Shown in pieces: positions 23,206 through 38,528 of a stretch of 55,412 nt of DNA. The notes beneath the pieces were generated by a model. The model made no database searches and was not told the origin of the DNA. It was given only the letters and a program-made list of their open reading frames with translations. The DNA is from Acidobacteriota bacterium. GTDB lineage: Bacteria; Actinomycetota; Acidimicrobiia; Acidimicrobiales; RAAP-2. The stretch covers positions 1-55,412 of the forward strand of contig JAGXAY010000005.1 of the NCBI GenBank assembly GCA_018971385.1, in the 5' to 3' direction. The position numbers and the translations under genes were made by a program. Position 1 is the stretch's first letter, and each line of letters opens with the position of its first letter.

Positions 23206-23255
23206 CGACGCCCTCGCGGAGGGGCGCTCGCCCCTCCGCGAGGATCGTGTCGTTA
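23203..23255 (+). terminator. Bidirectional hairpin between APC and MFS genes
   Basis: A perfect 14-bp inverted repeat (arms 23212-23225 and 23230-23243, loop GCTC) sits between the two convergent genes. An outer repeat TAACGAC/GTCGTTA (23203-23209 and 23249-23255) adds a second layer and includes both TAA stop codons. There is no T-tract. The stem is GC-rich enough to stop polymerase from both sides. Confidence 0.8.
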
Positions 23256-24431
23256 CACGTGGGCCGGTTCTCGGAACCGCCGGGCGGACCAGAAGAGAGC
23301 GAGCGCGGTCACCCCGTAGAGGGCCAGAAGTGCCGGGACCACCTGGACGCTGATTCGGGAGACCGAGGCGCTCACCAGGGCCGGGCCGAGCGTTCCCCCC
23401 ACCATCGTGGCCAGCATCAAGCTACCGATGCCGTCGGCGTCGTGGGGGCTGAGTTCGGTGTACCAGATGATCCCCATGGGAAAGACGGAGCCGAGGAAAA
23501 TGCCGAGAATCGGATAGGTGACGAGGGCCAACGGGCGAACGGCCGAGAGGCCGATGTCGCCGAGGGCCCCCACGAGGCACCCGAGGAGCAGTGGGGCCGT
23601 TCCGAAGCGACGGTGGAGCCAGGTGCCCGACGCCCTCGATATGGTCATACCTGTCCAAAATCCGGCGGTCACCCACGACCCGACCGTCGTGGAGTAGTGC
23701 CAGCCCTCCACCTGGGCGGCCATCCACCCGGACGCGCTGGTTTCGAGGCAGACGTAGACGGCGAAGGCGAAGGTGAACGTCCACATGATGCGGCGTCGGT
23801 CCACGCGACTTTTCGCTTCGACCTGAAGGGGATCGTCCCCCTGAGCCGGGGCGTGAAGGCCGCGAAGTCCCACGGCGAAGGTCAGCGCCACGATTCCGAG
23901 ACCAACGAAGACACCCCCGAAGTTGTTCGGGTGAACGAGAATCAGAATCAGCGGCGCGAGAACGGAGCCGAGTCCGTAGCCCGCGTTACCGATACTGAGT
24001 CGTTTGGTTCTTCCCACGGGCGCCGAACGCGAGAGCAGCGAATTAAGTGAGATGTCGAGCACACCGAAGGCGAGCCCGATGAGCCCGACACCCGCGAGGA
24101 ACCACCACCAGGAGGTGGCGAAGGAACTGAGAAGCAGACCGAGGGCGAGCGTGATGAGAGCACTCGTCAAAACCCGTCGACCGGAGCTCTTACGCAGTCC
24201 CTGCCAACCGGGAACTACTCCGAGAACGGCGCCGAAGAAGTAGACCGACAGAGACTCGCCGGCGCTCGAGAGGGAGACGTGAAAGTGGTGGGAGAAGGGG
24301 ACGAGAAGGGGACCAAAGAGGGCTCCCACCAGGCCCGACAATGTGAAGACGCCGGCCGTCGCCCCGAAGGACCACCGCCGAAAATCTACCTCCGTACTCG
24401 AACGAACGGGCTCTCGCGGATTCAATTCCAT
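23253..24431 (-). CDS. Major facilitator superfamily transporter
   Basis: The 392-residue protein has about twelve TM helices. The sequence FGVLDISLNSLLSRSAPVGRTKRLSIGNAGYGLGSVLAPL in TM4-5 (residues about 130-170) matches the FucP/YbjJ-like sugar-transporter branch of MFS. A TM8-like segment GMTISRASGTWLHRRFG has the family's RxG pattern. The start ATG at 24431 has only a weak AAGAAG site. It is divergent from the ROK kinase gene, so a sugar substrate is plausible but not proven. An efflux role is the alternative. Confidence 0.8.
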   Translation of the reverse strand: MELNPREPVRSSTEVDFRRWSFGATAGVFTLSGLVGALFGPLLVPFSHHFHVSLSSAGESLSVYFFGAVLGVVPGWQGLRKSSGRRVLTSALITLALGLLLSSFATSWWWFLAGVGLIGLAFGVLDISLNSLLSRSAPVGRTKRLSIGNAGYGLGSVLAPLILILVHPNNFGGVFVGLGIVALTFAVGLRGLHAPAQGDDPLQVEAKSRVDRRRIMWTFTFAFAVYVCLETSASGWMAAQVEGWHYSTTVGSWVTAGFWTGMTISRASGTWLHRRFGTAPLLLGCLVGALGDIGLSAVRPLALVTYPILGIFLGSVFPMGIIWYTELSPHDADGIGSLMLATMVGGTLGPALVSASVSRISVQVVPALLALYGVTALALFWSARRFREPAHV

Positions 24432-24493: not shown

Positions 24494-25258
24494 GTGAACG
24501 TGGGCGAGAACGAAGCCATCGCGTCGGTGGACATCGGAGCGACCTCCATCAAAGTGGCGCGCGTGACTCCCGAGGGAGTCCTTCTCGATGAGGTACGTCG
24601 AATCCCTACGCCCTATCCCTGCACTCCGGATCGACTGGTGGCGACGGTGACGGACGAGATACGCCGGAGCGGCTGCTCGCGGGCCGCCGTGGGCTTTCCG
24701 GGCGACATGGACTCCGGTCGCGTCCTCGAGCCCGGCAATCTGTCGAGACGGGGTGGCATCACTACTCCCATCGATCCCGAGATCGATCGGGCCTGGGTGG
24801 GCTTTGACGTGGAGTACGCGTTGCGTATGGCGACGCGAGTCGACGTCCGAGTCGTGAACGACGCCACCCTCGCCGCCTACGGGTACCACTCGGGGCGAGG
24901 TCGAGAGCTCGTCGTCACTCTCGGCACCGGTTTCGGCATCTCTCTCTTTGTCGAGGGGGAGTGGACGAAAATCCGTGACGTGGGGTCGGCCCCGTTCCAC
25001 GAGTGGGGTAGCTACGACGAAGTGGGAGGAGAACCCGCTCGCGCCGAGAACGAGACGCAGTGGCGAGAACGGGTACTCATCGCCATCGCCGAGTTCGTCG
25101 AGGAGTTCCGGGCGGACTCGGTGCACGTGGGTGGGGGTAACGCGCGATTCTTTGCGGGCGCCGACTTTGGTGAACTCGAGGTTCCCGTCGAGTTGAATGA
25201 CAATGAGGGAACGCTGAAGGGGGCGGCGAGATTATTTCACCCCACTCAGCACCTTTGA
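24494..25258 (+). CDS. ROK-family sugar kinase (polyphosphate glucokinase / N-acetylhexosamine kinase-like)
   Basis: The 254-residue protein has the ROK/ASKHA motifs: VDIGATSIKVARV (phosphate 1) at residues 11-23, VVNDATLAAYG with the catalytic aspartate, and LVVTLGTGFGISLF (phosphate 2). The C-terminus NDNEGTLKGAARLF replaces the usual adenosine motif and resembles polyphosphate glucokinases. The CxCGxxGC zinc site of many ROK kinases is absent. GTG 24494 lies 7 nt after TACACT. With the SIS gene and GH20 operon downstream, phosphorylation of glucose, GlcNAc or a related amino sugar is likely but unproven. Confidence 0.82.
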   Translation: MNVGENEAIASVDIGATSIKVARVTPEGVLLDEVRRIPTPYPCTPDRLVATVTDEIRRSGCSRAAVGFPGDMDSGRVLEPGNLSRRGGITTPIDPEIDRAWVGFDVEYALRMATRVDVRVVNDATLAAYGYHSGRGRELVVTLGTGFGISLFVEGEWTKIRDVGSAPFHEWGSYDEVGGEPARAENETQWRERVLIAIAEFVEEFRADSVHVGGGNARFFAGADFGELEVPVELNDNEGTLKGAARLFHPTQHL

Positions 25259-25310: not shown

Positions 25311-26333
25311 ATGACCACCATCTTTGAGTCGGAGATTCGTTCGCAGTCCGACGTCCTGGCGTCGCGGGCCCTCGAGAGCGCTCGGGTGGCGCGAGAAGCG
25401 GCGGCGAGTTTCGCGAGCTGCACCCACCTGGTGGTGGCAGCTCGGGGGTCCTCGGATAACGCCGCAGTCTTCTTCCAGTACCTCGCCGGTCAAGTCGCCG
25501 GGCGACTGGTCGCCCTCGCCGCGCCCTCGCTCTACGAGAGCCCCCTCGCTATGAATCTCGACGGCGCGGGCGTGGTCGCCATCTCTCAGTCCGGGCGATC
25601 CCCGGGCATCGCGGATGTCCTCGAGAGCGCGCGGGTTCAGGGCCGACCGAGCGTCGCCGTGACGAACAACCTCGAGTCACCACTGGGCCGAGGAGCCGAT
25701 CACGTGATGGGCTTGGGTGCGGGACCCGAGCGGGCCATCGCCTCGACGAAGACCTTCTCGAGCACCTGGCACGCCTTGGCCCAACTCGTGGAAGCGCTGA
25801 GCGGCCGTCCGCTGGAGGGTCTCGAGGAGACCCCGAGTTACGTGGGGGACCTCGTGAACTGGGCCCTCGACGCGGAGCTCCCTCTCGACTTGCTCGACGC
25901 CAACGGTCTGACCGTCGTAGGCCGAGGAGTAGGGTACGCCGCCGCCTCGGAGATTGCGCTCAAAGTTCGAGAAGTGACTGGGGTGCGCGCCGAGACCTAC
26001 GCCGCGCCCGACTACCTGCACGGTCCGATTGGGGCAGACGGGTTGGGGAGCACGCTCGTACTGCTCCTGAGCGACGAGTTGACCGACGACGTCGCCCGCG
26101 ACGTTCTCGGGGGGTGCGGCGAGGCGGGGATGCGGACCATCGTGGTGCGCACCCCGGAACGAGAAGGGACGGGGGCCGACGTCGAGATCGTTCTCCCTCG
26201 CCAGGCCCCCAACTGGCTCAGCACCCTCGGTATGGTCATTGTCGGTCAAGTGGTCGCCCTGCGACTGGGCGAGCGACGGGGGCGGCCCATCGACACTTCG
26301 CCCCGCCTGCACAAGGTCACGCTGTCGGCGTAG
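25311..26333 (+). CDS. SIS-domain sugar-phosphate isomerase/deaminase (GlmS-isomerase/AgaS/NagB-II-like)
   Basis: The 340-residue protein consists of two SIS domains and has no glutaminase domain. The first (residues about 35-160) has AARGSSDNAAVFFQYLAG and AISQSGRSPGIADVLESA, the phosphosugar-binding loop, followed by STKTFSSTWHALAQ. The second domain (about 200-320) has VVGRGVGYAAASEIALKVREVTG and the ETYAAPDYLHGPI motif common to GlmS isomerase domains. The lack of a glutaminase domain fits an aldose-ketose isomerase or deaminating enzyme that converts glucosamine-6-phosphate to fructose-6-phosphate. The gene is coregulated by position with the ROK kinase and GH20 operon. Confidence 0.84.
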   Translation: MTTIFESEIRSQSDVLASRALESARVAREAAASFASCTHLVVAARGSSDNAAVFFQYLAGQVAGRLVALAAPSLYESPLAMNLDGAGVVAISQSGRSPGIADVLESARVQGRPSVAVTNNLESPLGRGADHVMGLGAGPERAIASTKTFSSTWHALAQLVEALSGRPLEGLEETPSYVGDLVNWALDAELPLDLLDANGLTVVGRGVGYAAASEIALKVREVTGVRAETYAAPDYLHGPIGADGLGSTLVLLLSDELTDDVARDVLGGCGEAGMRTIVVRTPEREGTGADVEIVLPRQAPNWLSTLGMVIVGQVVALRLGERRGRPIDTSPRLHKVTLSA

Positions 26334-26422: not shown

Positions 26423-26525
26423 CAGACTAGTTCCCACATCGTGAACTGACCGGGAGGTCGGGTCGCGGGAGGGGAGCCTGTACGTCATCGGGGAACACCC
26501 CCGAGACTTAGGGGAGGAGTTGTCA

Positions 26526-28193
26526 GTGAAGAAGAAGTTTCGGGCCGGACTCGTCACTTCGGCGCTCACACTCGTCGCCTCGACCGTTGCGGTCGCGGGC
26601 GGCGCGATGGGCACCGGCGTGGCGGGAGCTTCCGGTAGCCAGGTACTACACCTGGACAACGAGCAGGGCGTCCTGTGGGCCTGCGCGTTTAACCCGTTTA
26701 ACCCCTCGGACTTGCCGTACTCGGTGGGGCTCACCTACGAGACCCTCGACTTCGTGAACACCTTGCAGAACGCCAAGGTGACGCCGTGGCTGGCCTCGTC
26801 CTACGCGTGGAGCAACGCTAATAAGACGCTGACCTTCACCGTGCGATCGGGCGTTAAGTGGTCCGACGGAGTGCCGATGACGGCGGCCGACGTGGCCTAC
26901 ACCTTCAACCTGTTGAAGGCCCACCCGGCGCTCGACCTGAACGCGGTGTGGTCCGCTCTCTCGAGCGTGACGGCACCGAGCGCGACGAAGGTCGTCATGA
27001 ACTTTAAGAGTGCGGCCGTGCCGTACTTCTACTACGTGGCCGACCAAGTGCCGATCGTTCCCGAGCACCTCTGGAGCAAGGTGGCGAACCCGGTGACCTA
27101 CACCGACGCCAAGCCCGTCGGTACCGGTGGGTACCTCATGACGCGCTGCACCGGACAGGACATCGTGTGGGCCGCCAATCCGAACTACTGGCAGAAGGGA
27201 ATGGCTCAGGTGAAGAACGTCGACATGCCGGCGTTCCTCTCCAACAACACCGCGAACGAGTACCTGGCCCAGGGTCAGTCGGCGTACGGGTCGCAGTTCA
27301 TCCCGAACATTCAGACCTACTACGTCAACAAGAAGGCCGGTAACCACTACTGGTTCCCACCGGTGGCCAACGTGTCAATCTTCCCGAACCTGACGGTTCC
27401 TGGATTGAACGACCCGAAGGTTCGCCAGGCGATCAGCTACGCGCTCAACCGCTCGCTCGTCTCGAAGATCGGTGAGTACGGTTACGAGCCGCCGGCGTCC
27501 CAGACCGGAATCGTGGCCCCGACCTTCAGTTCCTGGTCATCCTCGGCGGCCGCGGCGAAGCTCGGTGCGGGCTACAACGTGGCGAAGGCCGTGAGCCTGC
27601 TCGAGTCGGACGGGTACAAGAAGGTCAACGGCGTCTTTACGAAGAACGGCAAGGCTCTCTCCTTCACCCTGATGACTAACGGTGGCTACTCCGACTGGAT
27701 CGCCTCGACGCAGGTGATGGCTCAGCAGTTGGCGGCGGCGGGTATCAAGATCACCCTGCTCGCCCCGGCGGCGAACACCTTCTACGCCGACCTCTACACC
27801 GGTAAGTACCAGTTGGCCTACAACGCCGAGACGGGCGGACCGACGCCGTACTACGAACTGCGTCAAATGCTCCTGTCGGCGAACTCGGCGCCCATCGGGA
27901 CCGCCGCCGCGTCCAACTGGGAGCGGTTCAAGAGCCCGGCCGTCGACGCGTTGTTGGCTCAGTACGGTGCGACGACCTCACCCGCCGTGCAGCACAACAT
28001 TGTCAACCAGCTGGAGAACGTCATGGTTACCCAGGCCCCGGTGATTCCGGTGCTGGAGGAAGTTGACTGGTTCGAGTACAACACGACCCAGTTCACTAAC
28101 TTCCCGACCGCGGCGAACCCCTACGCTCAGCCGGGCCTCTACAACCAGCCGGACTGGGGTTACGTCCTGGATCAGTTGAAGCCCAAGGCCTAA
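26526..28193 (+). CDS. ABC transporter substrate-binding protein, Opp/Dpp type (SBP_bac_5)
   Basis: The 555-residue exported protein delivers substrate to the permeases downstream. It starts with a Sec signal peptide (Lys-rich, then a hydrophobic core, Ala-rich end near residue 38) but has no lipobox cysteine. The mature part shows class-C binding protein motifs: YSVGLTYETLDFVN, TFTVRSGVKWSDGVPMTAADVAYTFN near residue 105, and GYEPPASQTGIVAP in the C-terminal lobe. GTG 26526 follows GGGAGGAG by 6 nt. Because the operon encodes a GH20 hexosaminidase, an oligosaccharide such as chitobiose is a likelier ligand than a peptide. This is inference, since the family binds both. Confidence 0.9.
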   Translation: MKKKFRAGLVTSALTLVASTVAVAGGAMGTGVAGASGSQVLHLDNEQGVLWACAFNPFNPSDLPYSVGLTYETLDFVNTLQNAKVTPWLASSYAWSNANKTLTFTVRSGVKWSDGVPMTAADVAYTFNLLKAHPALDLNAVWSALSSVTAPSATKVVMNFKSAAVPYFYYVADQVPIVPEHLWSKVANPVTYTDAKPVGTGGYLMTRCTGQDIVWAANPNYWQKGMAQVKNVDMPAFLSNNTANEYLAQGQSAYGSQFIPNIQTYYVNKKAGNHYWFPPVANVSIFPNLTVPGLNDPKVRQAISYALNRSLVSKIGEYGYEPPASQTGIVAPTFSSWSSSAAAAKLGAGYNVAKAVSLLESDGYKKVNGVFTKNGKALSFTLMTNGGYSDWIASTQVMAQQLAAAGIKITLLAPAANTFYADLYTGKYQLAYNAETGGPTPYYELRQMLLSANSAPIGTAAASNWERFKSPAVDALLAQYGATTSPAVQHNIVNQLENVMVTQAPVIPVLEEVDWFEYNTTQFTNFPTAANPYAQPGLYNQPDWGYVLDQLKPKA

Positions 28194-28232: not shown

Positions 28233-29216
28233 ATGAAGTACCTACTTCGTAGAGTGGGGTTCCTCGTAATCACCCTGTGGGGTGCTCTTACGGTGAACTT
28301 CTTCATCCCCCGGCTCATGCCCGGCAGTCCCGCGCTCTCCATCATCGGGGCGTCGCGGGGACACGTAAACCCCGCGGCGCTCAAGGCCCTCGAAGCGGCC
28401 TTTGGTGGGGGTCAGCAAAATCTCTTCGTCGCGTACCTCGACTACCTAGGTAACGCTCTACGGGGTCAGTTCGGAGTCTCGCTGAGTAACTCCTTCGAGC
28501 CCGTGACCACGGTCATTATGAAGGGCTTGCCCTGGACTCTCGGCCTGGTGGGAGTGACCACCATTCTCGGCTTCCTGATCGGGACGGGAGTCGGGGCGAT
28601 TGCCGCGTGGCGCCGGGGCGGCAAGTTGGATAGCGTCCTGCCCCCGATGTTCATTGTGGTCTCGGCCTTTCCCTACTTCTGGATTGGCCTCCTCGTCATC
28701 TGGCTGTTTTCTCTGACCCTGGGGTGGTTCCCGACCATCTCTAACTACTCCGAGAATCTGATCCCGAACTGGACTTCGTGGGGGTTCATTCGAGACGTGC
28801 TCTGGCACGCGGTGCTCCCGGCGTTCACCATTCTCATCTCCTCGGTAGGGGGCTGGATTCTCACGATGCGCAACAACATGATCACCGTCGTCGCTGAGGA
28901 CTACGTGAAGATGGCTCGGGCGAAGGGTCTCCACCCTCGTCGGATTCTCTGGCAGTACGCCGGGAGAAACGCCGTTCTGCCGAGTTTGACCGGATTCGCC
29001 ATGTCGCTCGGATTCGTGATTTCCGGAGCCATCCTCGTCGAGTTCGTTTTTAATTATCCGGGCGTGGGCTTTATGTTGCTCACCGCCGTACAGAACAACG
29101 ACTACCCGCTGATGCAGGCGCTCTTTCTCCTTATTACGGTGGCCGTTCTCGTGTCCATATTTATTGCGGACGTCGCAACGACAATTCTCGACCCACGAAC
29201 CCGGGGTAGCCGATGA
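28233..29216 (+). CDS. ABC transporter permease, DppB/OppB type
   Basis: The 327-residue protein has six TM segments. The N-terminus RRVGFLVITLWGALTVNFFIPRLMPGSP is the classic OppB start, and the EAA coupling loop is present near residues 222-240 (DYVKMARAKGLHPRRILWQYAGRNA). The gene lies 39 nt after the binding-protein stop. Its ATGA stop-start overlap with the next permease indicates coupled synthesis. Together the two permeases form the membrane channel of the importer. Confidence 0.93.
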   Translation: MKYLLRRVGFLVITLWGALTVNFFIPRLMPGSPALSIIGASRGHVNPAALKALEAAFGGGQQNLFVAYLDYLGNALRGQFGVSLSNSFEPVTTVIMKGLPWTLGLVGVTTILGFLIGTGVGAIAAWRRGGKLDSVLPPMFIVVSAFPYFWIGLLVIWLFSLTLGWFPTISNYSENLIPNWTSWGFIRDVLWHAVLPAFTILISSVGGWILTMRNNMITVVAEDYVKMARAKGLHPRRILWQYAGRNAVLPSLTGFAMSLGFVISGAILVEFVFNYPGVGFMLLTAVQNNDYPLMQALFLLITVAVLVSIFIADVATTILDPRTRGSR

Positions 29217-30121
29217 ACCCCCTCGCTCTGCTTCGTCGCTCGGCCTCTTCTACGTGGGCATTCCTTCGTCGCGACCGCAAGGCCCTGGCTGGATCCATCA
29301 TCCTCCTCGTCCTCTTCATCATCGCGGCTTTTCCGACCTGGTTCTCCCCGGACAATCCCTCAGCCGAGATCTACTCTCCGGGCCTCGGACCGTCCTCCGC
29401 GCACCTCCTCGGTACCACCTCACTCGGTCAGGACGTGTTCTCCCAGTTGATGTCGGGCACTCGCCAGTCGGTCCTCATTGCGCTGCTGGTGGGATTCTTT
29501 TCCACGGTGGCCTCGGTCGTGATTGGAGTGACGGCCGCCTACTTCGGGGGCATCGTCGACGACTTACTTTCCCTCTTCACCGACGTTGTTCTCGTGATTC
29601 CGACCTTTCCCTTGATCATCGTGATTGCCGGGTATCTCCAAGGAACGGGTGGAGCCAGTTTCTGGGCCCTGGTCTTCGTGCTCACCATTACGGGCTGGTC
29701 CTACGGGGCTCGGCAACTTCGCGTGCAGGCTCTTTCACTACGTAATCGGGACTACCTCCTCGCGGCTCGAGCGCGCGGCGAGAGTGCCTGGTACGTCATC
29801 GGTGTCGAGATGTTGCCACCCATGACCTCGCTCATCGTCGCCAACTTTCTTTCCTCGGCCCTCTACGCCGTGCTCACGGCGGCGGGGCTGCTCTTCGTGG
29901 GGCTCGGTAACGTCAACTCCCAGTCCTGGGGCGCGATGCTCTACTGGGCCCAGAACAACGAGGCCCTGAACGCCGGATTGCCACTGTGGGCGCTCACCCC
30001 CGGCATCATGATCGCGCTTCTCGGAACGGCGTTCGCGTTACTGAACTACGCCTTTGACGAGGTTTCTAACCCGGCCCTTCGCTCCACGCGCCGCCGGTCG
30101 AGAAAGCAGGCTCTCGCGTGA
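29213..30121 (+). CDS. ABC transporter permease, DppC/OppC type
   Basis: The 302-residue protein is the second permease. It has an N-terminal cytoplasmic part and TM1 (about 22-42), then the GTTSLGQDVFSQLMSGTRQSVLIAL stretch that is nearly diagnostic for DppC/OppC. Five further TMs and the EAA loop (RNRDYLLAARARGESAWYVIGVEMLP) follow. ATG 29213 overlaps the previous stop, and its own stop overlaps the GTG of the first ATPase gene. Confidence 0.93.
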   Translation: MNPLALLRRSASSTWAFLRRDRKALAGSIILLVLFIIAAFPTWFSPDNPSAEIYSPGLGPSSAHLLGTTSLGQDVFSQLMSGTRQSVLIALLVGFFSTVASVVIGVTAAYFGGIVDDLLSLFTDVVLVIPTFPLIIVIAGYLQGTGGASFWALVFVLTITGWSYGARQLRVQALSLRNRDYLLAARARGESAWYVIGVEMLPPMTSLIVANFLSSALYAVLTAAGLLFVGLGNVNSQSWGAMLYWAQNNEALNAGLPLWALTPGIMIALLGTAFALLNYAFDEVSNPALRSTRRRSRKQALA

Positions 30122-31086
30122 ACGTACTGGAAGTTCGGGACCTCATGGTCGAGTACGACACCCCGGCCGGACCGGCTCAGGCGGTGCACGGCGTCTCCTT
30201 CGACCTCGCCGAGGGAGAGTTTCTCGCCATTGTGGGCGAGTCGGGCTGTGGCAAGTCCACGATGCTGTTCGCCATCGCTCGCCTCTTGAGTGCGCCGGCC
30301 CGCATGGTCGGGGGAGAGGTCCGCTTTAACGGAGTCGACCTCGCTCGCCTCGAGGGTGAGGATCTGCGACAAGTGCGGTGGCGTGATATCTCGGTGGTGA
30401 TGCAGAGTGCGATGAACGCGCTCAATCCCACTCTCTCGATCGGTGCCCAACTCGCCGACGTGTGTCGGGCGCACACCGATTGGGATGACGCCCGCATCGA
30501 AGCCCGTTCGGCCGAGGTTCTCGACATGGTTTCCATCGACCGTACCCACCTGAAGAGCTATCCGTTCCAGTTGTCGGGGGGCATGCGCCAACGGGCCATG
30601 ATTGCGATGGCCCTTCTGCTCGAGCCCAAACTCATCATCATGGATGAACCCACGTCCGCACTCGACGTCGTGGCCCAGCGCTCCCTGATGCGCCAGGTGG
30701 AGAATCTCCGCCAACGACTCGGCTTCGCGGTGCTCTTCGTCACTCACGACATGAGTGTCGTCTCCCACTTCTCCGACCGACTGGCCGTCATGTACGCCGG
30801 CGAGTTCGTGGAGTTGGGTCGTACCCGGGAGGTCTTTGACCAACCCCGTCACCCCTACTCCGTGGGCCTGATGGACGCGTTCCCCTCTCTCGTCGGAGAA
30901 CCGCGAGAACTGGTGGGCATTCCCGGTAACCCTCCCTCGCTGGTGAACCCTCCCGGCGGTTGTCTCTTTGCGGCGCGCTGTCCGTCAGTGACCGACGAGT
31001 GTCGTCAGTATCGCCCGGAGCTCGTTGACCGTGCGGGTCACGCGACGAGGTGTCACCTCGTGAATCCTCGGAGGAACGATGGCTGA
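30118..31086 (+). CDS. ABC transporter ATP-binding protein, DppD/OppD type
   Basis: The 322-residue ATPase has Walker A GESGCGKST near residue 41, the Q-loop VVMQSAMNALNPT, the signature LSGGMRQRAMIA, and Walker B LIIMDEPTSALD. The C-terminal oligopeptide-transporter extension ends with a Cys-rich stretch (GGCLFAARCPSVTDEC, plus a later Cys) typical of OppD/DppD. GTG 30118 overlaps the permease stop; its stop overlaps the next ATPase start by 8 bases. It acts as one half of the ATPase heterodimer. Confidence 0.94.
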   Translation: MNVLEVRDLMVEYDTPAGPAQAVHGVSFDLAEGEFLAIVGESGCGKSTMLFAIARLLSAPARMVGGEVRFNGVDLARLEGEDLRQVRWRDISVVMQSAMNALNPTLSIGAQLADVCRAHTDWDDARIEARSAEVLDMVSIDRTHLKSYPFQLSGGMRQRAMIAMALLLEPKLIIMDEPTSALDVVAQRSLMRQVENLRQRLGFAVLFVTHDMSVVSHFSDRLAVMYAGEFVELGRTREVFDQPRHPYSVGLMDAFPSLVGEPRELVGIPGNPPSLVNPPGGCLFAARCPSVTDECRQYRPELVDRAGHATRCHLVNPRRNDG

Positions 31087-32047
31087 GCCGATTCTTCACG
31101 TGGAGTCGATGAGTCGGCACTTCCAAGTGGGCGGACTGCGTTCGTCGGGGATCCTTCACGCCTCGGACGACATCACCTTCGACGTCTACCCCGGGGAGAT
31201 CGTCGCCCTGGTGGGTGAGTCCGGTTCCGGTAAGTCCACCATCGCTCGAGTTCTCGCCGGCCTCTACCCTCCGAGTTCGGGGCGCATCGTCTTTGAAGGT
31301 AAGGTCCTCGGAAAGACATCGAGTCGGGCCGTTCGAGGCAAAATGCCGATGGTTTTTCAGGATCCTTTCGGCTCCATTAACCCCGTGTTGCGAGTGGGTC
31401 ACGCTCTGCAGCGCTCCCTGCGCCTTCACCGTCGTGACCTCACCAGTGAAGCACGTCACTCTGAAGCCGTCGCCCTCGTGGAGAAGGTGGGTCTCCTGCC
31501 GGGCGAGGAGGTCCTCCGGCGTTTTCCTCACGAACTCTCCGGGGGCCAGCGCCAGCGTCTCGGTTTCGCCCAGGCTTTGGCGTCGCGTCCGTCGCTCATT
31601 TTGGCCGACGAACCCGTGTCCATGCTCGACGTCTCTATTCGCATTGGTCTCCTCAACGTGATGCGTGACTTACGAGACGACGGAGTCTCTCTCCTCTACA
31701 TCACCCACGATTTGGCGAGTGCCCGTTACGTGGCCGATCGCATGATGGTGCTCTACGCCGGACGCATTGTCGAAGAGGGGCGTACCGACGACGTTATTTC
31801 CCGGCCCGCCCACCCCTACACCCGACTCTTAATGGCGACGGCCCCCGACCCCCGGCTCCCACTCGACACGTCGAGCGACGTCGAGGACTTGGGCGAACCA
31901 CCGCGGGTGATCAACCCGGGACCGGGGTGTCGGTTCGCGCCGCGGTGTCCTCTCGCGACGGACCACTGTCGAGCCGCCACGCCGGAGTTTGTCGAGATTA
32001 CTCCTCACCAGCGAGCGGCCTGCTTCGCGGTGAACCCCGCTCCGTGA
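31079..32047 (+). CDS. ABC transporter ATP-binding protein, DppF/OppF type
   Basis: The 322-residue ATPase pairs with the preceding one. It shows Walker A GESGSGKST near residue 45, the Q-loop VFQDPFGSINP, the signature LSGGQRQRLGFAQ, Walker B LILADEPVSMLD, and a C-terminal Cys cluster (CRFAPRCPLATDHC). A serine-methionine replaces the usual T-S in the EPTSALD motif (EPVSMLD), common in OppF. The stop overlaps the GH20 GTG by four bases, so transporter and hydrolase are translationally linked. Confidence 0.94.
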   Translation: MAEPILHVESMSRHFQVGGLRSSGILHASDDITFDVYPGEIVALVGESGSGKSTIARVLAGLYPPSSGRIVFEGKVLGKTSSRAVRGKMPMVFQDPFGSINPVLRVGHALQRSLRLHRRDLTSEARHSEAVALVEKVGLLPGEEVLRRFPHELSGGQRQRLGFAQALASRPSLILADEPVSMLDVSIRIGLLNVMRDLRDDGVSLLYITHDLASARYVADRMMVLYAGRIVEEGRTDDVISRPAHPYTRLLMATAPDPRLPLDTSSDVEDLGEPPRVINPGPGCRFAPRCPLATDHCRAATPEFVEITPHQRAACFAVNPAP

Positions 32048-33564
32048 CCCTCATTCCTCGCCCCCAGTGTGTGACTCCGTCGGAGGGAACGCTCACGTGG
32101 ACGTCACCTCTCAGGGTGACGGCGGCCCCAGAGTTACGTGACGCCGTTCAGGTGTTCGCAAATGACCTGTCTCAGACAGTAGGTTGGTCGGTGGAGTTCG
32201 TCGACGACGACGCTCACCTGGTGCTCTCCGTGGACGCGGAACGGCGTCCGGAGGGGTTTAGTCTCGACGTGAGTGACGCTGTCGAGGTGCGGGCCGCTGA
32301 CCCCTCCGGCGCCTACTACGCCCTCCAGGTTCTTCGCAGTTTCACACCCGCGGCCAGCGTGACACCAGGTTCCGAGCTGACCGAATGGACCCTCCCACGG
32401 ATGCACGTCGTGGACTCGCCGGCCTTCGCCTGGCGGGGAGTCCACCTCGACGTGGCCCGCCACTTCTTCTCCGTCGACGACGTGATTCGGTTCATCGACC
32501 TCATCAGTCTTCATCGCCTCAACCATCTCCACCTCCACCTCAACGACGATCAGGGGTGGCGCGTGGAACTCCCGTCGTGGCCCCGACTGACCGAGGTCGG
32601 TGCTTGGCGACGCTCATCACCCGTCGGTCACGAGAGAGACGGGGTGGACGACGGAGTGCCCCACGGCGGCTTCTACACGGCAGCGGATATTGAACGACTC
32701 CGAACACACGCCACGTCTCGCTTCGTCACACTCGTTCCTGAGATCGATCTTCCGGGGCACGCTCAGGCCGTGATCGCGGCCTACCCCGAGCACGGGGTGA
32801 CGGACGAGCCCGTCGAGGTGTGGACGCGGTGGGGAATTTCCGACAACGTCCTGCAGGTGAGCGAAGGCACCGTGAGTTTCGCTGAGAACCTGGTTCGTGA
32901 GGTAGCGGCCCTCTTTCCCGGGTCTCCCTTCCACATCGGGGGAGACGAGTGTCCCACGACGCAGTGGGAGAGTTCCCCGATTGCTCGTGCGGTGATGGCC
33001 GAGCGGGGGATGCGTGAACCACGCGACCTCCAGGGACTCTTCACCGAGCGGCTCGCGTCGACTCTTCGCCGTCTCGGTCACGAGGTCATCGCCTGGGACG
33101 AGGTTCTCGACGCCTCGGTGCCTGAAGGGACCATCATCGCGGCGTGGCGAGACGCCGCCAAGGGCCGGGAAGCGGCTGAACGAGGTCTCGACGTGATCAT
33201 GGCTCCCATGCAGTGGGTGTACTTCGACTGGCTGAACTCCGCTGACCCTAATGAACCGGTGGCCATCGCGGCGCCCCCCGCCGTGACTACTCTCGAACGG
33301 GTGTACGAGTTCTCGGTCGTGCCCGACCAGTTGCCCGACGAGCTGCGAGCCCGCATTCGTGGGGCCCAGGCTCAGTTGTGGACCGAGTACATCGCGACGC
33401 GTGAGCACCTCGACTACATGGCCTTTCCCCGACTGTGCGCCTTCGCCGAAGTGGTCTGGGGAACGGCGGGATCCTTCGAGGAGTTTCGAGTCCGCCTCAC
33501 GTCCCACCTGGAGAGACTCCGCGCCCTCGGAGTGGGTTTTCGCCCCCTGGAGACGGAGGGGTAG
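32044..33564 (+). CDS. GH20 beta-N-acetylhexosaminidase, cytoplasmic
   Basis: The 506-residue enzyme releases terminal beta-linked GlcNAc or GalNAc by substrate-assisted catalysis. An N-terminal GH20b domain (about 1-125) precedes the TIM barrel, which opens with WRGVHLDVARHFFSVDDVIRFID and HLHLNDDQGWRVEL. The catalytic pair Asp301-Glu302 lies in HIGGDECPTTQW, and later WDEVLD and AQLWTEYI line the active site. No signal peptide is present, so it acts on imported oligosaccharide. GTG 32044 gives a GTGA overlap with the ATPase gene. The substrate is probably chitobiose, chitin oligomers or a glycoprotein-derived disaccharide. Confidence 0.93.
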   Translation: MTLIPRPQCVTPSEGTLTWTSPLRVTAAPELRDAVQVFANDLSQTVGWSVEFVDDDAHLVLSVDAERRPEGFSLDVSDAVEVRAADPSGAYYALQVLRSFTPAASVTPGSELTEWTLPRMHVVDSPAFAWRGVHLDVARHFFSVDDVIRFIDLISLHRLNHLHLHLNDDQGWRVELPSWPRLTEVGAWRRSSPVGHERDGVDDGVPHGGFYTAADIERLRTHATSRFVTLVPEIDLPGHAQAVIAAYPEHGVTDEPVEVWTRWGISDNVLQVSEGTVSFAENLVREVAALFPGSPFHIGGDECPTTQWESSPIARAVMAERGMREPRDLQGLFTERLASTLRRLGHEVIAWDEVLDASVPEGTIIAAWRDAAKGREAAERGLDVIMAPMQWVYFDWLNSADPNEPVAIAAPPAVTTLERVYEFSVVPDQLPDELRARIRGAQAQLWTEYIATREHLDYMAFPRLCAFAEVVWGTAGSFEEFRVRLTSHLERLRALGVGFRPLETEG

Positions 33565-34563
33565 ATGGAACCCCTTCGCGCGGCCGAAGAGTTTGTGTCG
33601 AGCGCTCGCGATGAAGGGCGGCGGTGGCTCGACACCTCGGAGGTGGATCTCTACTCCACTCTGCGATGGCTGGACCTGCCCGAATCACATCTCGACGAAG
33701 TCATGGCTCGCTACGGCGATCTCCGACGAGACCCGGTCTTTGGACCTCTGGTCGGAGGCATGGTCGAGCGTCTCGTGAACGACCGGGGCGACCTCGACCA
33801 GCCCCTCCCTATTTGGCCCGACTTCGACGAGTTCGGTGACCTCGGACGACTCTGGTGGATCTACGTCGTGGGCCTCGCCACACCCAGTCTGGTGGCGTAC
33901 CACGAGAGTCGGGGTCTACCCCCCGACGTGACCCGGCGCACCGTGAGCGTGCTCGCTCGACACGCTAACCTGCACGAACGAAAGTGGGGGACCCCGGGAG
34001 TCGACGCGGGCTGGTGGATGATTCCCGTCATTCGGGGAGAGCTCGTTCAGGTGGGGTCGCTCCAGTTCCATCGCTACCACCTCGGCGTCTCGGTGCTCAC
34101 CCCTCGCCCCTGGTTCACTCGGGACGAGGCGACGACTCTCGGGCCCGGCTTTCGAGACGGTGACGAGGCCTGGGGGGTGCATATTCCCGACGGCACCGAT
34201 CTCTCGGAGAGTGCGCTCGAGGAGACGTGGGAACGGGCCCGCGACGTTCTCCACCGCGCCTGGTCCCCGAGTACTCGTCGCCTGGCCACACTGCAGAGCT
34301 GGATGATGGACTCTCGCCTCGCGGAGTTTCTCGGGCCGGACTCGCGCATTGTTCGCTTCCAACGCCAATTTCACGCCGGGGCGCGGTGGGGCCACGACGT
34401 GGACAACGTGGTCGAGTTCGTTTTTCGCCAGCCGGCGAGCCACCTACCCGGACTCGTCGCGTGTACTCGGGTCCAGGCGGCGGTCCTCGAGGTCTTGCGC
34501 TCGGGAGACTCCTGGCGTGACGGAGTGGGGTGGCGTGATTTCGACCGACCCGACGTTCGCTAA
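33565..34563 (+). CDS. GNAT-like acyltransferase-domain protein (NAT_N / GNAT_C type)
   Basis: The 332-residue protein resembles a family whose two domains are named N-acyltransferase N-terminal and GNAT-like C-terminal (PF18082 and PF18164, from memory). Residues about 1-150 are helical. The C-terminal part has LVQVGSLQFHRYHLG, WGVHIPDGTDLSESAL and LQSWMMDSRLAEFLGPDSRIVRFQRQF, which are the family's most recognisable stretches. The exact reaction is not established as far as I know. It starts directly after the GH20 stop (TAG-ATG, no gap) and ends the operon, so it probably acts on the sugar released by GH20 or imported with it. Confidence 0.7.
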   Translation: MEPLRAAEEFVSSARDEGRRWLDTSEVDLYSTLRWLDLPESHLDEVMARYGDLRRDPVFGPLVGGMVERLVNDRGDLDQPLPIWPDFDEFGDLGRLWWIYVVGLATPSLVAYHESRGLPPDVTRRTVSVLARHANLHERKWGTPGVDAGWWMIPVIRGELVQVGSLQFHRYHLGVSVLTPRPWFTRDEATTLGPGFRDGDEAWGVHIPDGTDLSESALEETWERARDVLHRAWSPSTRRLATLQSWMMDSRLAEFLGPDSRIVRFQRQFHAGARWGHDVDNVVEFVFRQPASHLPGLVACTRVQAAVLEVLRSGDSWRDGVGWRDFDRPDVR

Positions 34564-34605: not shown

Positions 34606-34663
34606 TGTGAATAATTCTCATTTACTGCTTGATTTCTGTGAAAAATTCACATAGTGTGGCGAG
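34606..34663 (+). promoter_or_regulatory. Promoter with double operator upstream of the deoR-like gene
   Basis: The arrangement copies that at 26364-26422. The distal site TGTGAATAATTCTCA is at 34606-34620 and the perfect palindrome TGTGAAAAATTCACA at 34637-34651. TTGATT (-35) is at 34629-34634 and TAGTGT (-10) at 34652-34657. The operator centres are 31 bp apart. The -10 lies 7 nt from GTG 34665, so the regulator message is probably leaderless. Occupancy would block polymerase and close an autoregulatory loop. Confidence 0.82.
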
Positions 34664-34664
34664 T

Positions 34665-35441
34665 GTGGACTCCAAAGCGCGTCGTACAGTCATCGCGGAG
34701 CAACTCCGAGCCCAGGGGGAGGTCTCCATCGTGGAGTTGGCGGAGGCCTTCGGAACCTCGCAAATGACGATTCGACGGGACCTTGATCAGTTGGAGGACG
34801 AGGGTCTGGCTCGACGAACTCGGGGCGGGGCCATCTCCATCGTCTCGCGGTCCTTCGAGCCACCGATCCTCCAACGCGCCACCCACCGCAGCGAATCCAA
34901 GCAACTCATCGGTCGGGCGGCCGCGGATCTCGTTCGACCGAACGACACGATCTTTCTCGACGTGGGTTCGACCACCCACGAGATGGCGAAGGCCCTCCCC
35001 GATCAGATGGCCCTCACCGCGATCACGAGTTCCCTCCTCATCGCCACGGAACTCGCCACCAAGCCGAGTGTCAAAACCATCGTGACCGGGGGAGTCATTC
35101 GCCCGGGCGAACTCTCCCTCATCGGTACGAGAGCGCAGCACACTTTTCTCGATCTCAACTGTGACGCCGTTTTTATGGGGGTCGCCGGCATCTCGGACGT
35201 GAAGGGTCTCACCGAGTACAACTTGGACGACGCCGACGTGAAGCGTGCCGCGATGGCGACGGCTCGTCGGGTGGTGGTCCTGGCCGACCAGACCAAACTG
35301 GGACAGGTGGCCCTCGTGACCTTCGCCGGCCTCGACGCCGTTCACACCCTCATCACCGACGCCGCGCCCTCGCACCCCATTGTGCGCCGTATTCGCGAGC
35401 ACGACGTGGAGGTTATCCACGTCGAACACGCCACCCTCTGA
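34665..35441 (+). CDS. DeoR/GlpR-family transcriptional regulator
   Basis: The 258-residue regulator has an N-terminal winged helix: RRTVIAEQLRAQGEVSIVELAEAFGTSQMTIRRDLDQLEDEGLARRTRGG (residues about 5-55). A DeoR-type sugar-phosphate sensor domain of Rossmann type follows, with FLDVGSTTHEMAKALP and the later DLNCDAVFMGVAGISDVKGLTE and LADQTKLGQ. The start is GTG 34665, chosen by the TAGTGT box 7 nt upstream; earlier GTGs at 34638 and 34656 overlap the operator or promoter. It probably senses a phosphorylated sugar and represses both this operon and the ABC/GH20 operon. Confidence 0.9.
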   Translation: MDSKARRTVIAEQLRAQGEVSIVELAEAFGTSQMTIRRDLDQLEDEGLARRTRGGAISIVSRSFEPPILQRATHRSESKQLIGRAAADLVRPNDTIFLDVGSTTHEMAKALPDQMALTAITSSLLIATELATKPSVKTIVTGGVIRPGELSLIGTRAQHTFLDLNCDAVFMGVAGISDVKGLTEYNLDDADVKRAAMATARRVVVLADQTKLGQVALVTFAGLDAVHTLITDAAPSHPIVRRIREHDVEVIHVEHATL

Positions 35442-35462: not shown

Positions 35463-36266
35463 ATGTCCCGATTCCGTAGCATCTTCCCCGGGGTTTCTAA
35501 GCCCCTCATCGCGATGGCTCACGTGCCACCGTTGCCGGGAACGCCCCTCTTCGACGCCGCCGCGGGGGTGGAGGGTCTGATCGATCACGTGAAGCGCGAC
35601 ACGGAGATTCTGCTCGAGGGGGGCTTCGACGCGGTGCTGTTCTGTAACGAGGGGGACCGTCCCTACCAGCTCGCCGCTGGTCTTGAGGCGTCCGCCGTTA
35701 TGACGAGAGTCGCGACGGAGTGCCGTCCGACGGATCGTCCCTTCGGGGTGGACTACCTCTGGGACGCCCAGTGCGCTCTGGCCATCGCCGTGGGTGCGGG
35801 AGCGTCCTTCATGCGCGAGGTCGTCAACGGCTCCTGGGAGTCCGACATGGGGCCCTGGCACCCCGACGCCGCCCAACTTCTCCGTAATCGTCGCGCCTTC
35901 GGCCGCGAGGACTTGGCGATCTTCGCCAATATCACTCCGGAGTTCGCGTCCCCCATCGGACAGCGCAGCGCCGCTCAGATGGCCCGCTCGACGGTCGTCT
36001 CCTCCCTCGCCGACGCCATCCTGGTCTCTGGTCCGATGGCGGGCGCCGAGCCGGACGTGTCCACGGTCGCGGACGTGCGAGAGTCGGTCGATCCGGCGGT
36101 ACCGGTGTTGCTGAATACCGGAGCGAAGGCCGCGACCATCGCTCAGTATCTGAAGTACGCCGACGGGTGCATCGTGGGATCGGACCTGAAGCGCGACGGC
36201 TACACCTGGAACGAGGTCGACCCGGAGAGGGTGAAGCGCTTCATCGACGCCGCGCGCAGTGTCTGA
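35463..36266 (+). CDS. BtpA/SgcQ-family protein (TIM-barrel)
   Basis: The 267-residue protein belongs to the BtpA family (SgcQ in enterobacteria). Typical parts are MAHVPPLPGTPLFDA at residues 18-32, LLEGGFDAVLFCNEGDRPY, and the C-terminal phosphate-site-like region VLLNTGAKAATIAQYLKYADGCIVGSDLKRDG. The family's enzymatic role is not settled; BtpA was named for photosystem I biogenesis, while SgcQ lies in a sugar operon. The gene begins 21 nt after the regulator. The next gene starts inside it, 8 bases before its end. An aldolase-like or isomerase-like function on a phosphorylated sugar is inference. Confidence 0.78.
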   Translation: MSRFRSIFPGVSKPLIAMAHVPPLPGTPLFDAAAGVEGLIDHVKRDTEILLEGGFDAVLFCNEGDRPYQLAAGLEASAVMTRVATECRPTDRPFGVDYLWDAQCALAIAVGAGASFMREVVNGSWESDMGPWHPDAAQLLRNRRAFGREDLAIFANITPEFASPIGQRSAAQMARSTVVSSLADAILVSGPMAGAEPDVSTVADVRESVDPAVPVLLNTGAKAATIAQYLKYADGCIVGSDLKRDGYTWNEVDPERVKRFIDAARSV

Positions 36267-37728
36267 GGAGGTCGTTCTCGGACTCGACCTCGGCTCCTCG
36301 GGGGTAAAGGGGGTCGCCCTCGACGTCGATCAGGGTCTCGTGGCGACGGCCACTCGACCCGTTCATCTCTCGACGCCCCGACCGGGCTGGGCCGAAGCGG
36401 ACCCCGAGGAGTGGTGGAACGCCACTCGGGAGGTCATCGCTACCGTGTCGCGCGGTCGACGAGTGCGGGCCATCGCGGTCTCGGGCATGGTCCCCGCGGT
36501 CGTCCTCGCGGACGAGTCGGGTCGAACCCTTCGTCCCGCGATTTTGCAGAACGACGCTCGAGCGGTCGTCGAGATTGAGGAGTTGCGTTCTCGCCTCGCC
36601 GACGTGGACCTCCTTCGACTGACCGGCTCCGCTCTCACTCAACAGTCGGTCGCCCCCACCCTGGTGTGGCTCGCTCGCCACGAACCCGACACGTGGCGCC
36701 GGGTGCACTCCGTCCTCGGTTCCTACGACTGGATCGCCCAACGCCTCGGGGCTCGTCCTCACGTGGAAGAGAACTGGGCCATCGAGAGCGGTCTCTACGA
36801 CCTCCACTCCCGTCCCCTCGAGGACGTGGCTCGCGCCGCGAACATTCGTTGGCCCGAGATGCTCGAGGTGGCGCGGCCCGGAGAACTCGTCGGGGTTCTC
36901 GACCCGGCGCTCGCCGCCGAGTGGGGGTGTCGGAACGACGTCGCGCTCGTCGTCGGGGGCGCCGATCACGTGCTCTCGGCGCTCGGCGCGGGACTCACCC
37001 AACCGGGGGACGTGCTCGTCAAGTTGGGGGGAGCCGGGGACATCCTCGCCGTCAGCGAGCAACCAGTCTTTGACCCCCGTCTCTACCTCGACGCTCATCC
37101 CCGGGAGGGGACCTGGCTCCCGAACGGCTGCATGGCGACCTCGGGGTCCCTCCTCGCCTGGGAGCGCGAGCTCTTCGGGGAGACCACCTTCGAGACCCTG
37201 GAAGAAGCGGCCCGACTCTCTCGGCCCGGGGAACTCCTGGCGCTGCCCTACTTTCTCGGCGAGAAGACCCCCCTCCACGACCCCGACCTGCGAGGAGCCC
37301 TCATCGGGCTCCACCTCGCGAGCACCAAGGGGGACATCCACCGAGCGTTTTTGGAGTCCATCGCCTACGCCTTTCGGGCTCACCTCGACGTGATGAGTGA
37401 ACACGGTCTCGAAGCGACGACGGTGCGGGTCACGAACGGTGGGTCCCGGTCGCGGCTCTGGCGAGAGATTGTGGCCGACGTGCTCGGTCGCCCCCTCCAC
37501 TCCATCATCAACCATCCCGGGGCCTCCTTCGGCGCGGCCGTGCTCGCCGCGCTCGGGGTGGGATTGGTGGATTCGCTCGACGTGGTGCGCCACTTCCTCG
37601 AGGCCGGGGAGATGATCGAGCCGCGCGCCGAGCTTCGCGACCTCTACGACGAGCGCTACCGCCTCTTTCAAGAGTGGGGCGCCGCTAGCACGCCGGTGGC
37701 TCACGCTCTCGCTCGGGGTCAGCGATGA
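36259..37728 (+). CDS. FGGY-family carbohydrate kinase (xylulokinase-like)
   Basis: The 489-residue kinase phosphorylates a sugar or polyol with ATP. It opens with GLDLGSSGVKGVALD (phosphate 1). The GWAEADPEEWW segment is shared with xylulokinases and relatives. The second domain has VVGGADHVLSALGAG, GGAGDILAVSEQP and the C-terminal VTNGGSRSRLWREIVADVLGRPLH (adenosine site). The FGGY signature is only approximate. The substrate cannot be read off: ketopentose, erythritol-type or hexulose are all open. Its GTG overlaps the BtpA gene, and the following SDR gene begins shortly after, so all three probably form one pathway. Confidence 0.88.
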   Translation: MSEEVVLGLDLGSSGVKGVALDVDQGLVATATRPVHLSTPRPGWAEADPEEWWNATREVIATVSRGRRVRAIAVSGMVPAVVLADESGRTLRPAILQNDARAVVEIEELRSRLADVDLLRLTGSALTQQSVAPTLVWLARHEPDTWRRVHSVLGSYDWIAQRLGARPHVEENWAIESGLYDLHSRPLEDVARAANIRWPEMLEVARPGELVGVLDPALAAEWGCRNDVALVVGGADHVLSALGAGLTQPGDVLVKLGGAGDILAVSEQPVFDPRLYLDAHPREGTWLPNGCMATSGSLLAWERELFGETTFETLEEAARLSRPGELLALPYFLGEKTPLHDPDLRGALIGLHLASTKGDIHRAFLESIAYAFRAHLDVMSEHGLEATTVRVTNGGSRSRLWREIVADVLGRPLHSIINHPGASFGAAVLAALGVGLVDSLDVVRHFLEAGEMIEPRAELRDLYDERYRLFQEWGAASTPVAHALARGQR

Positions 37729-37763
37729 CGACTCCACTTTCTACGTTGAACAAGGAGAACCCT

Positions 37764-38528
37764 ATGAATCGCCCCGTTGCCGTCGTCACTGGAGCCGGGT
37801 CCGGCATCGGTCGGGCCATCGCGAGAGAGTTGGCCCGACGGGGTCACCACGTGGTGGTGAGCGATATCGACCTCGCCGCCGCCGAGTCCGCCGCAAGTGA
37901 GATGGAGTCGGCTAGTGCCGTGCGCCTCGACGTCACGGTGCCCGCGGAGTCGAGCGCTCTCGCCACCCAGGTAGTCGAGGAGTACGGTCGACTGGACGTG
38001 TGGGTGTCGAACGCCGGGATTTCGAAGATGCAGCGCTTCGTCGAGGTCTCGGAGGAGGACCTGCGTCGAACTCTGCGGGTCAATACCGAAGGGGTCTTCT
38101 TTTGCGGTCAAGCGGCCGCGCGGGCGATGATCGCCCTCGATCGGGGTGGGGTCATCATCAACACCGCCTCGATGGCGGCGAAGCAGGGCCGAGTTCCCTT
38201 CCTCGCCGACTACGTCGCCTCGAAGTTCGCCGTGATGGGACTCACTCAAGCCATGGCGTTCGAACTCGCCCCGCACCGCATTCGGGTGAACGCCGTCTGC
38301 CCCGGCTTCGTCGCGACTCCGATGCAGACGCGCGAACTCGCGTGGGAGGCGGCGCTGCGGGGAGTAACCCCCGACGAAGTGGAGCGGCTCTGGGTGAACG
38401 ACACTCCGCTTGGTCGTCTAGAGACTCCGGAGGACGTCGCCACGGCGGTCGCCTTTCTCGCCTCCAGTGACGCCGCCTTCATCACCGGTGAATCCCTCTC
38501 GGTGAACGGCGGAGCCTTCATGGACTAG
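37764..38528 (+). CDS. Short-chain dehydrogenase/reductase (polyol/sugar dehydrogenase-like)
   Basis: The 254-residue classical SDR has the cofactor motif VVTGAGSGIGRA (residues 6-17), the NAGISK motif, the catalytic Ser in INTASMAAKQG, Tyr and Lys in DYVASKFAVMG, and PGFVATPM. The acidic residue after the second strand (SDIDLA) suggests NAD(H). ATG 37764 follows AAGGAG by 6 nt. An alternative ATG at 37725 overlaps the kinase stop and cannot be excluded. With the kinase it could oxidise a polyol to a ketose that is then phosphorylated; this is inference from the operon. Confidence 0.86.
   Translation: MNRPVAVVTGAGSGIGRAIARELARRGHHVVVSDIDLAAAESAASEMESASAVRLDVTVPAESSALATQVVEEYGRLDVWVSNAGISKMQRFVEVSEEDLRRTLRVNTEGVFFCGQAAARAMIALDRGGVIINTASMAAKQGRVPFLADYVASKFAVMGLTQAMAFELAPHRIRVNAVCPGFVATPMQTRELAWEAALRGVTPDEVERLWVNDTPLGRLETPEDVATAVAFLASSDAAFITGESLSVNGGAFMD

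Follow-up and report, generated by a model that had tools for sequence, protein, structure and literature searches.

Organization of the locus

The window, i.e. the whole stretch of 55,412 nucleotides that was analysed, holds an operon on its forward strand in which a gene for a NAT_N/GNAT_C protein (NATN below) directly follows a GH20 hexosaminidase gene. The following features were identified:

24494..25258 (+): ROK-family sugar-kinase-like protein
25311..26333 (+): SIS-domain protein whose nearest match, below the equivalog cut-off, is the GlcN-6-P deaminase NagB-II
26520..28193 (+): DppA-type binding protein; closest by PDB sequence search to chitin-oligosaccharide-binding proteins of Vibrio
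28233..32047 (+): DppB, DppC, DppD and DppF transporter genes (28233-29216, 29213-30121, 30118-31086 and 31079-32047)
32044..33564 (+): GH20 beta-N-acetylhexosaminidase with the HxGGDE catalytic motif; probable GTG start, open frame from 31927
33565..34563 (+): NATN, an N-acyltransferase of 332 aa by Pfam, PDB search and fold, with NAT_N (aa 28-158) and GNAT_C (aa 160-323)
34629..35441 (+): DeoR-family regulator
35463..38528 (+): BtpA/SgcQ-like, FGGY kinase and SDR genes, which accompany the operon across the genus

The closest PDB relative of the SIS protein is the GlcN-6-P deaminase 8eol and that of GH20 is the beta-N-acetylhexosaminidase 3rcn. Among the PDB matches of the DppA-type receptor, 1zty is named chitin-oligosaccharide-binding and the related 5yqw and 6lzt are titled peptide-binding. 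The probable start of GH20, GTG at 32044, overlaps the DppF stop (GTGA), and no signal peptide is visible from there. The enzyme is therefore probably cytoplasmic, in agreement with an earlier note on this sequence, which took the hexosaminidase to be intracellular. As no GH18 chitinase was found in the genome, the oligosaccharides must come from outside. An ORF at 23247-24047 (+) was rejected as an operon gene, being antisense to an MFS-type gene at 23253-24431 (-); the relative at locus L031 is MFS_1.

The NATN frame is unbroken over its entire length and its ATG, the sole start codon in that frame, comes immediately after the GH20 TAG (33562-33564), with no nucleotide in between. The earlier note had described this direct succession correctly, but its wording that the protein is fused to the GH20 operon does not hold, since NATN and GH20 are two separate ORFs with ordinary translational-coupling spacing. 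In the loci of 17 relatives, the spacing from the GH20 stop to a start codon is -4, -1, 0, +2, +3 or +6. With the start staying near the GH20 stop in these relatives, the tight spacing is conserved and not due to chance. A seeming internal TGA in the L008/L009 matches was discarded, as the alignment looks to have overrun the natural stop by a few residues.

Family, fold and conserved residues

Both Pfam domains score above their cut-offs, with 70.0 bits for NAT_N (cut-off 27.8) and 85.8 bits for GNAT_C (cut-off 22.8), so the family assignment made from the sequence at first reading stands. A PDB sequence search with NATN gave only Dbv8 and Tcp24/Orf11* as significant matches, with E-values to 1e-80 when a profile was used. 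The AlphaFold model (pLDDT 92, pTM 0.90) was compared to the PDB with Foldseek, and only 4mfz, 4mfk, 4q36, 6iix and 4mfj were significant (E<=1e-17, TM about 0.75). The PDB entries of these solved relatives include complexes with octanoyl- and decanoyl-CoA, and the structure prediction that had been suggested as a check gives a fold matching acyl-CoA-bound crystal structures. Tei11 (= Tcp24/Orf11*) and Dbv8 put an acyl group onto the amino group of glucosamine in teicoplanin and A40926, respectively, once this sugar has been de-acetylated, and the GlcN accepted by known family members is glycosidically bound (PMC8987122). The NAT_N/GNAT_C reaction, which had been believed undefined, is therefore a defined one (PMC8987122, PDB 4q36).

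Three stretches of the NATN gene are relevant for the comparison with these enzymes:

34012..34017 (+): codons of Trp150-Trp151; W150 aligns with W163 of Orf11*
34072..34164 (+): aa 170-200, which immediately precede the catalytic strand; 31 aa long versus 8 aa in Tcp24/Dbv8
34180..34182 (+): His206 codon, within the conserved HIP motif; counterpart in the alignment of the residue changed His->Ala in 4mfk/4mfl/4mfp/4mfq and 6iix

Based on PDB entry titles and sequences, from which the mutant residues of Orf11* were read, the sequence common to 4mfk, 4mfl, 4mfp and 4mfq has Ala for the HIP/HVP histidine of 4mfj, and the entry 6iix, whose title names W163A, has Trp->Ala in addition. H206 is identical in all homologs compared (41/41). 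The window clade and Tcp24/Dbv8 retain the WW pair, which some homologs have lost, including the one at L072.

NATN thus resembles Tcp24/Orf11* (Tei11) and Dbv8 (4mfj, 4mfk, 4q36, 6iix, 4mfz) in its two-domain fold, its WW motif and the catalytic HIP/HVP histidine, and the chemistry of these enzymes is acyl transfer onto the glucosamine 2-amino group. However, the identity is about 25-28% and the tree places the window clade (21 rows, support 100/99) apart from Tcp24/Dbv8, which have LA or LR at the sites of F265-Q266 besides the shorter pre-strand segment. Furthermore, NATN is part of a sugar uptake/catabolism operon, unlike the Tei11/Dbv8 orthologs of the glycopeptide biosynthetic clusters. 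To our knowledge, as far as solved structures and the literature searched show, the NAT_N/GNAT_C fold has been characterised only from lipoglycopeptide antibiotic tailoring, and no mention of DUF5596 or NAT_N/GNAT_C together with hexosaminidases was found in that literature. NATN is a new member of this known fold, and its biological setting, sugar catabolism, is new as well.

Conservation of the NATN-GH20 pair

Members of the genus retain the gene order SIS-DppABCDF-GH20-NATN-DeoR-BtpA-FGGY-SDR. In a scan of the contig collection, which used genus-level alignment and so covers close relatives, GH20 lies immediately upstream of NATN in 17 of the 18 loci. Among 37 sampled genomes of the same genus, NATN and GH20 are present in exactly the same 12, including G027, in which the two genes are on different contigs. 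The GH20 of G027 (L081, G027:C44) is a different copy, 42% identical, in a Dpp/SIS/ROK cluster, and its NATN (L031, G027:C18) has as neighbours an MFS transporter and an OrfB/Cas12f-like transposase. In G289, a genus member sampled later, GH20 is present and NATN is absent. At this locus (L089), GH20 spans 7384-8958 and a single-domain GNAT of 143 aa is located about 2.3 kb away (11248-11676).

The survey of NATN neighbourhoods covered one phylum. In the order-level sample of 298 genomes, NATN occurs in 10, a strong GH20 (E below 1e-60) in 18, one being a contig-edge fragment, and both in 7 (Fisher p = 9e-8, not corrected for kinship). Outside the genus, NATN is adjacent to GH20 in families f16, f101 and f97, with the gene order reversed in two: f16 has NATN-GH20 plus a sugar ABC transporter (L072), f97 has NATN followed by a divergent GH20 (L075), and f101 has GH20-NATN (L073). 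With NATN either before or after GH20, the pairing has persisted or re-formed through rearrangement. Other f101 loci have the order ROK-Dpp-NATN-GH4 (L076 and L078) or show NATN adjoining NagA-SIS-tandem GNAT-NamZ (L074). The neighbourhoods are hence non-random, the outcome on which the earlier note had made its proposal depend, with NATN tied to GH20, to NamZ/NagA/SIS or to Dpp plus GH4 across families. On the other hand, no amino-sugar neighbours were seen at the unlinked NATN of G027 (L031), at L040 and L087 or at the Streptomyces-type L033, L034 and L036, and the phylum-sample loci L033-L038 lack an amino-sugar context as far as examined. The plasmid collection gave only four distant NATN relatives, none of them tied to amino-sugar genes where annotated. 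Homologs outside amino-sugar loci indicate further roles for the NATN family.

A GlmA-like acetyltransferase in the same position

Genome G471 lacks NATN. At its locus L095, the genes after GH20 encode a tandem GNAT, a BadF-type kinase, SIS and NagA, and a Dpp transporter is encoded close by. The best solved relatives of this tandem GNAT, both by sequence and by fold, are the C. acetobutylicum GlmA structures (5kf1 series; PMC10936415), and in the fold ranking the acetyltransferase region of RmNag (4zm6) comes next, ahead of mycothiol synthase. The tandem GNATs of L072 and L074 also match GlmA 5kf1. This subtype was found in 4 of the 298 genomes of the order (Acidimicrobiia), always in amino-sugar loci, where it is next to GH20, in the vicinity of NATN-GH20 or flanked by NamZ and SIS-NagA:

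L095:6938-7870, L072:1633-2625, L074:6375-7385, L098:7287-8252 (-): GlmA-like tandem GNATs
L074:4071-8530, L098:4713-9511 (-): NagA-SIS-tandem GNAT-NamZ (exo-N-acetylmuramidase) clusters

The clusters of L074 and L098 resemble peptidoglycan-fragment recovery with a built-in glucosaminide acetyltransferase. NATN is predicted to share the role of GlmA, the acetylation of non-reducing GlcN in amino-sugar recovery, but GlmA is a tandem GNAT (Acetyltransf_1) without NAT_N/GNAT_C. NATN has neither this architecture nor a match to 5kf1, and GlmA was not found in the PDB sequence search with NATN.

Proposed role of NATN

NATN is very likely an acyl-CoA N-acyltransferase that acts on an amino sugar in catabolism. 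More specifically, it is probably an N-acyltransferase, most plausibly an acetyltransferase, that turns non-reducing GlcN ends into GlcNAc for cleavage by GH20. The earlier note had suggested acetyl transfer to or from an amino sugar; acyl transfer onto the amino sugar is the most likely direction, and the opposite one found no support.

GH20 relies for catalysis on the substrate's 2-acetamido group and can therefore not act on a free-GlcN non-reducing end. In general, N-acetyl-dependent hexosaminidases cannot take off an unacetylated glucosamine at the end of chitosan or of a de-acetylated wall fragment. In the proposed pathway, the Dpp-type transporter would import GlcN-containing chito-oligosaccharides, after which cytoplasmic NATN, with its Tcp24/Dbv8 fold, would bind acyl-CoA and the non-reducing GlcN. 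H206, the probable base, would deprotonate the 2-amino group of GlcN, and NATN would move the acyl group, most likely acetyl, from acyl-CoA onto it. GH20 would then free GlcNAc from the N-acetylated end. As the known NAT_N/GNAT_C enzymes use long acyl chains, acetyl is what we infer for NATN, together with a glucosaminide as acceptor and acetylation before cleavage as the role.

This acetylate-then-cleave role is supported by the family, the fold, the conserved His, the operon coupling, the linkage to amino-sugar genes across families, the likeness of the DppA-type receptor to chitin-oligosaccharide-binding proteins and the GlmA-like enzyme in the same slot. Against it stand the long acyl chains used by known family members, the homologs without amino-sugar neighbours, the GH20 loci without any acyltransferase (L080, L091 and L094) and the loss of W150 in L072 despite its adjacency to GH20. 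In addition, acetylation of GlcN costs acetyl-CoA, and the genome has neither a NagA for the onward use of GlcNAc nor a GH18.

A similar coupling is known from RmNag (PDB 4zm6), a fungal protein that joins a GH3 N-acetylglucosaminidase and a glucosamine N-acetyltransferase. RmNag cleaves (GlcN)2 only with acetyl-CoA, so that acetylation followed by cleavage was shown by experiment (PMC4680927). In both systems an exo-hexosaminidase is coupled to a GlcN N-acetyltransferase (predicted for NATN), but RmNag is one polypeptide of GH3 and tandem GNAT, whereas here GH20 and NAT_N/GNAT_C are encoded by neighbouring genes. HGSNAT likewise acetylates terminal GlcN, a step needed in heparan breakdown (PMC11357348), and NagX has been proposed for bacterial glucosamine use (PMC9007349). 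These members of the heparan-alpha-glucosaminide N-acetyltransferase family are like the proposed NATN in that terminal GlcN is acetylated before or for catabolism; unlike NATN, they are membrane proteins of an unrelated fold that act across the membrane.

In this soil actinobacterium of the Acidimicrobiales type, a hexosaminidase is thus paired with a relative of the enzymes that fatty-acylate the glucosamine of teicoplanin. Judging from the tie of NATN to hexosaminidases, the enzymes of antibiotic tailoring may be one specialised offshoot of a larger glucosaminide-acting group, and bacteria may have more than one unrelated solution for bare GlcN ends. NATN could also give a new reagent for N-acylating chito-oligosaccharides.

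Alternative functions and the question of NagA

NATN might instead acetylate free cytoplasmic GlcN or its phosphate, independently of GH20, with the resulting GlcNAc used for wall synthesis or detoxification. The operon linkage fits this equally well, GlmA reportedly also accepts free GlcN, and in a genome without NagA the GlcNAc could feed UDP-GlcNAc rather than glycolysis. Nevertheless, this route seems rather unlikely, as the SIS protein of the operon, nearest to GlcN-6-P deaminase, would compete for GlcN-6-P and the characterised family members take glycosidically bound GlcN (PMC8987122).

It is improbable that NATN fatty-acylates a glucosaminide to give an N-acyl amino-sugar product or signal, as in the lipoglycopeptides, even though all solved relatives are octanoyl/decanoyl-CoA enzymes. 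The NATN operon is catabolic, with an importer and an exo-hydrolase and with biosynthetic cluster genes absent from it in the window. The separate clade, the LA/LR at F265-Q266 and the lack of most of the 31-aa segment in Tcp24/Dbv8 also argue against a long chain, as does the GlmA-like acetyltransferase in the equivalent slot of L095.

If NATN acylated a protein or a non-sugar amine, its place in the operon being only historical, this would agree with the other roles indicated by homologs outside amino-sugar loci. The persistence of the NATN-GH20 pairing in several families despite rearrangement makes such a function quite improbable.

No nagA match was found in this genome (96% complete), so the earlier note was right that NagA is missing. 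Of the 14 genus genomes with GH20 and NATN, 3 have a NagA above cut-off and 11 do not. NagA is absent from every examined NATN locus with an adjacent GH20, compared to its presence in 6/9 GH20 loci without NATN. This alternation of NagA and NATN at GH20 loci is striking, but phylogenetically shallow. It could be explained by NATN working in reverse, with acetyl passing from GlcNAc or a chito-oligosaccharide onto CoA; if true, NATN would replace NagA where GH20 operons lack it, and the acetyl group would be retained as acetyl-CoA. However, NATN and NagA coexist in at least seven genomes (G009, G024, G030, G691, G456, G662 and G605), NATN lies beside NagA in L074, and in L095 GH20, the GlmA-like GNAT and NagA share one locus, so that substitution is not the likely meaning of the pattern and the suggestion that NATN could replace NagA is unlikely to hold. 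Since amide-to-thioester transfer is moreover uphill, we know of no precedent for the de-acetylating direction in the NAT_N/GNAT_C family, and other candidates exist, the reverse reaction is very improbable. These candidates are PIG-L deacetylase homologs, three of which were compared to NCBIfam, with best matches that are BshB1-like for one and MshB-like for two, none above cut-off. In total, this genome (G000) has four PIG-L homologs, two at C168, one at C194 and one at C83, all of them candidate NagA substitutes.
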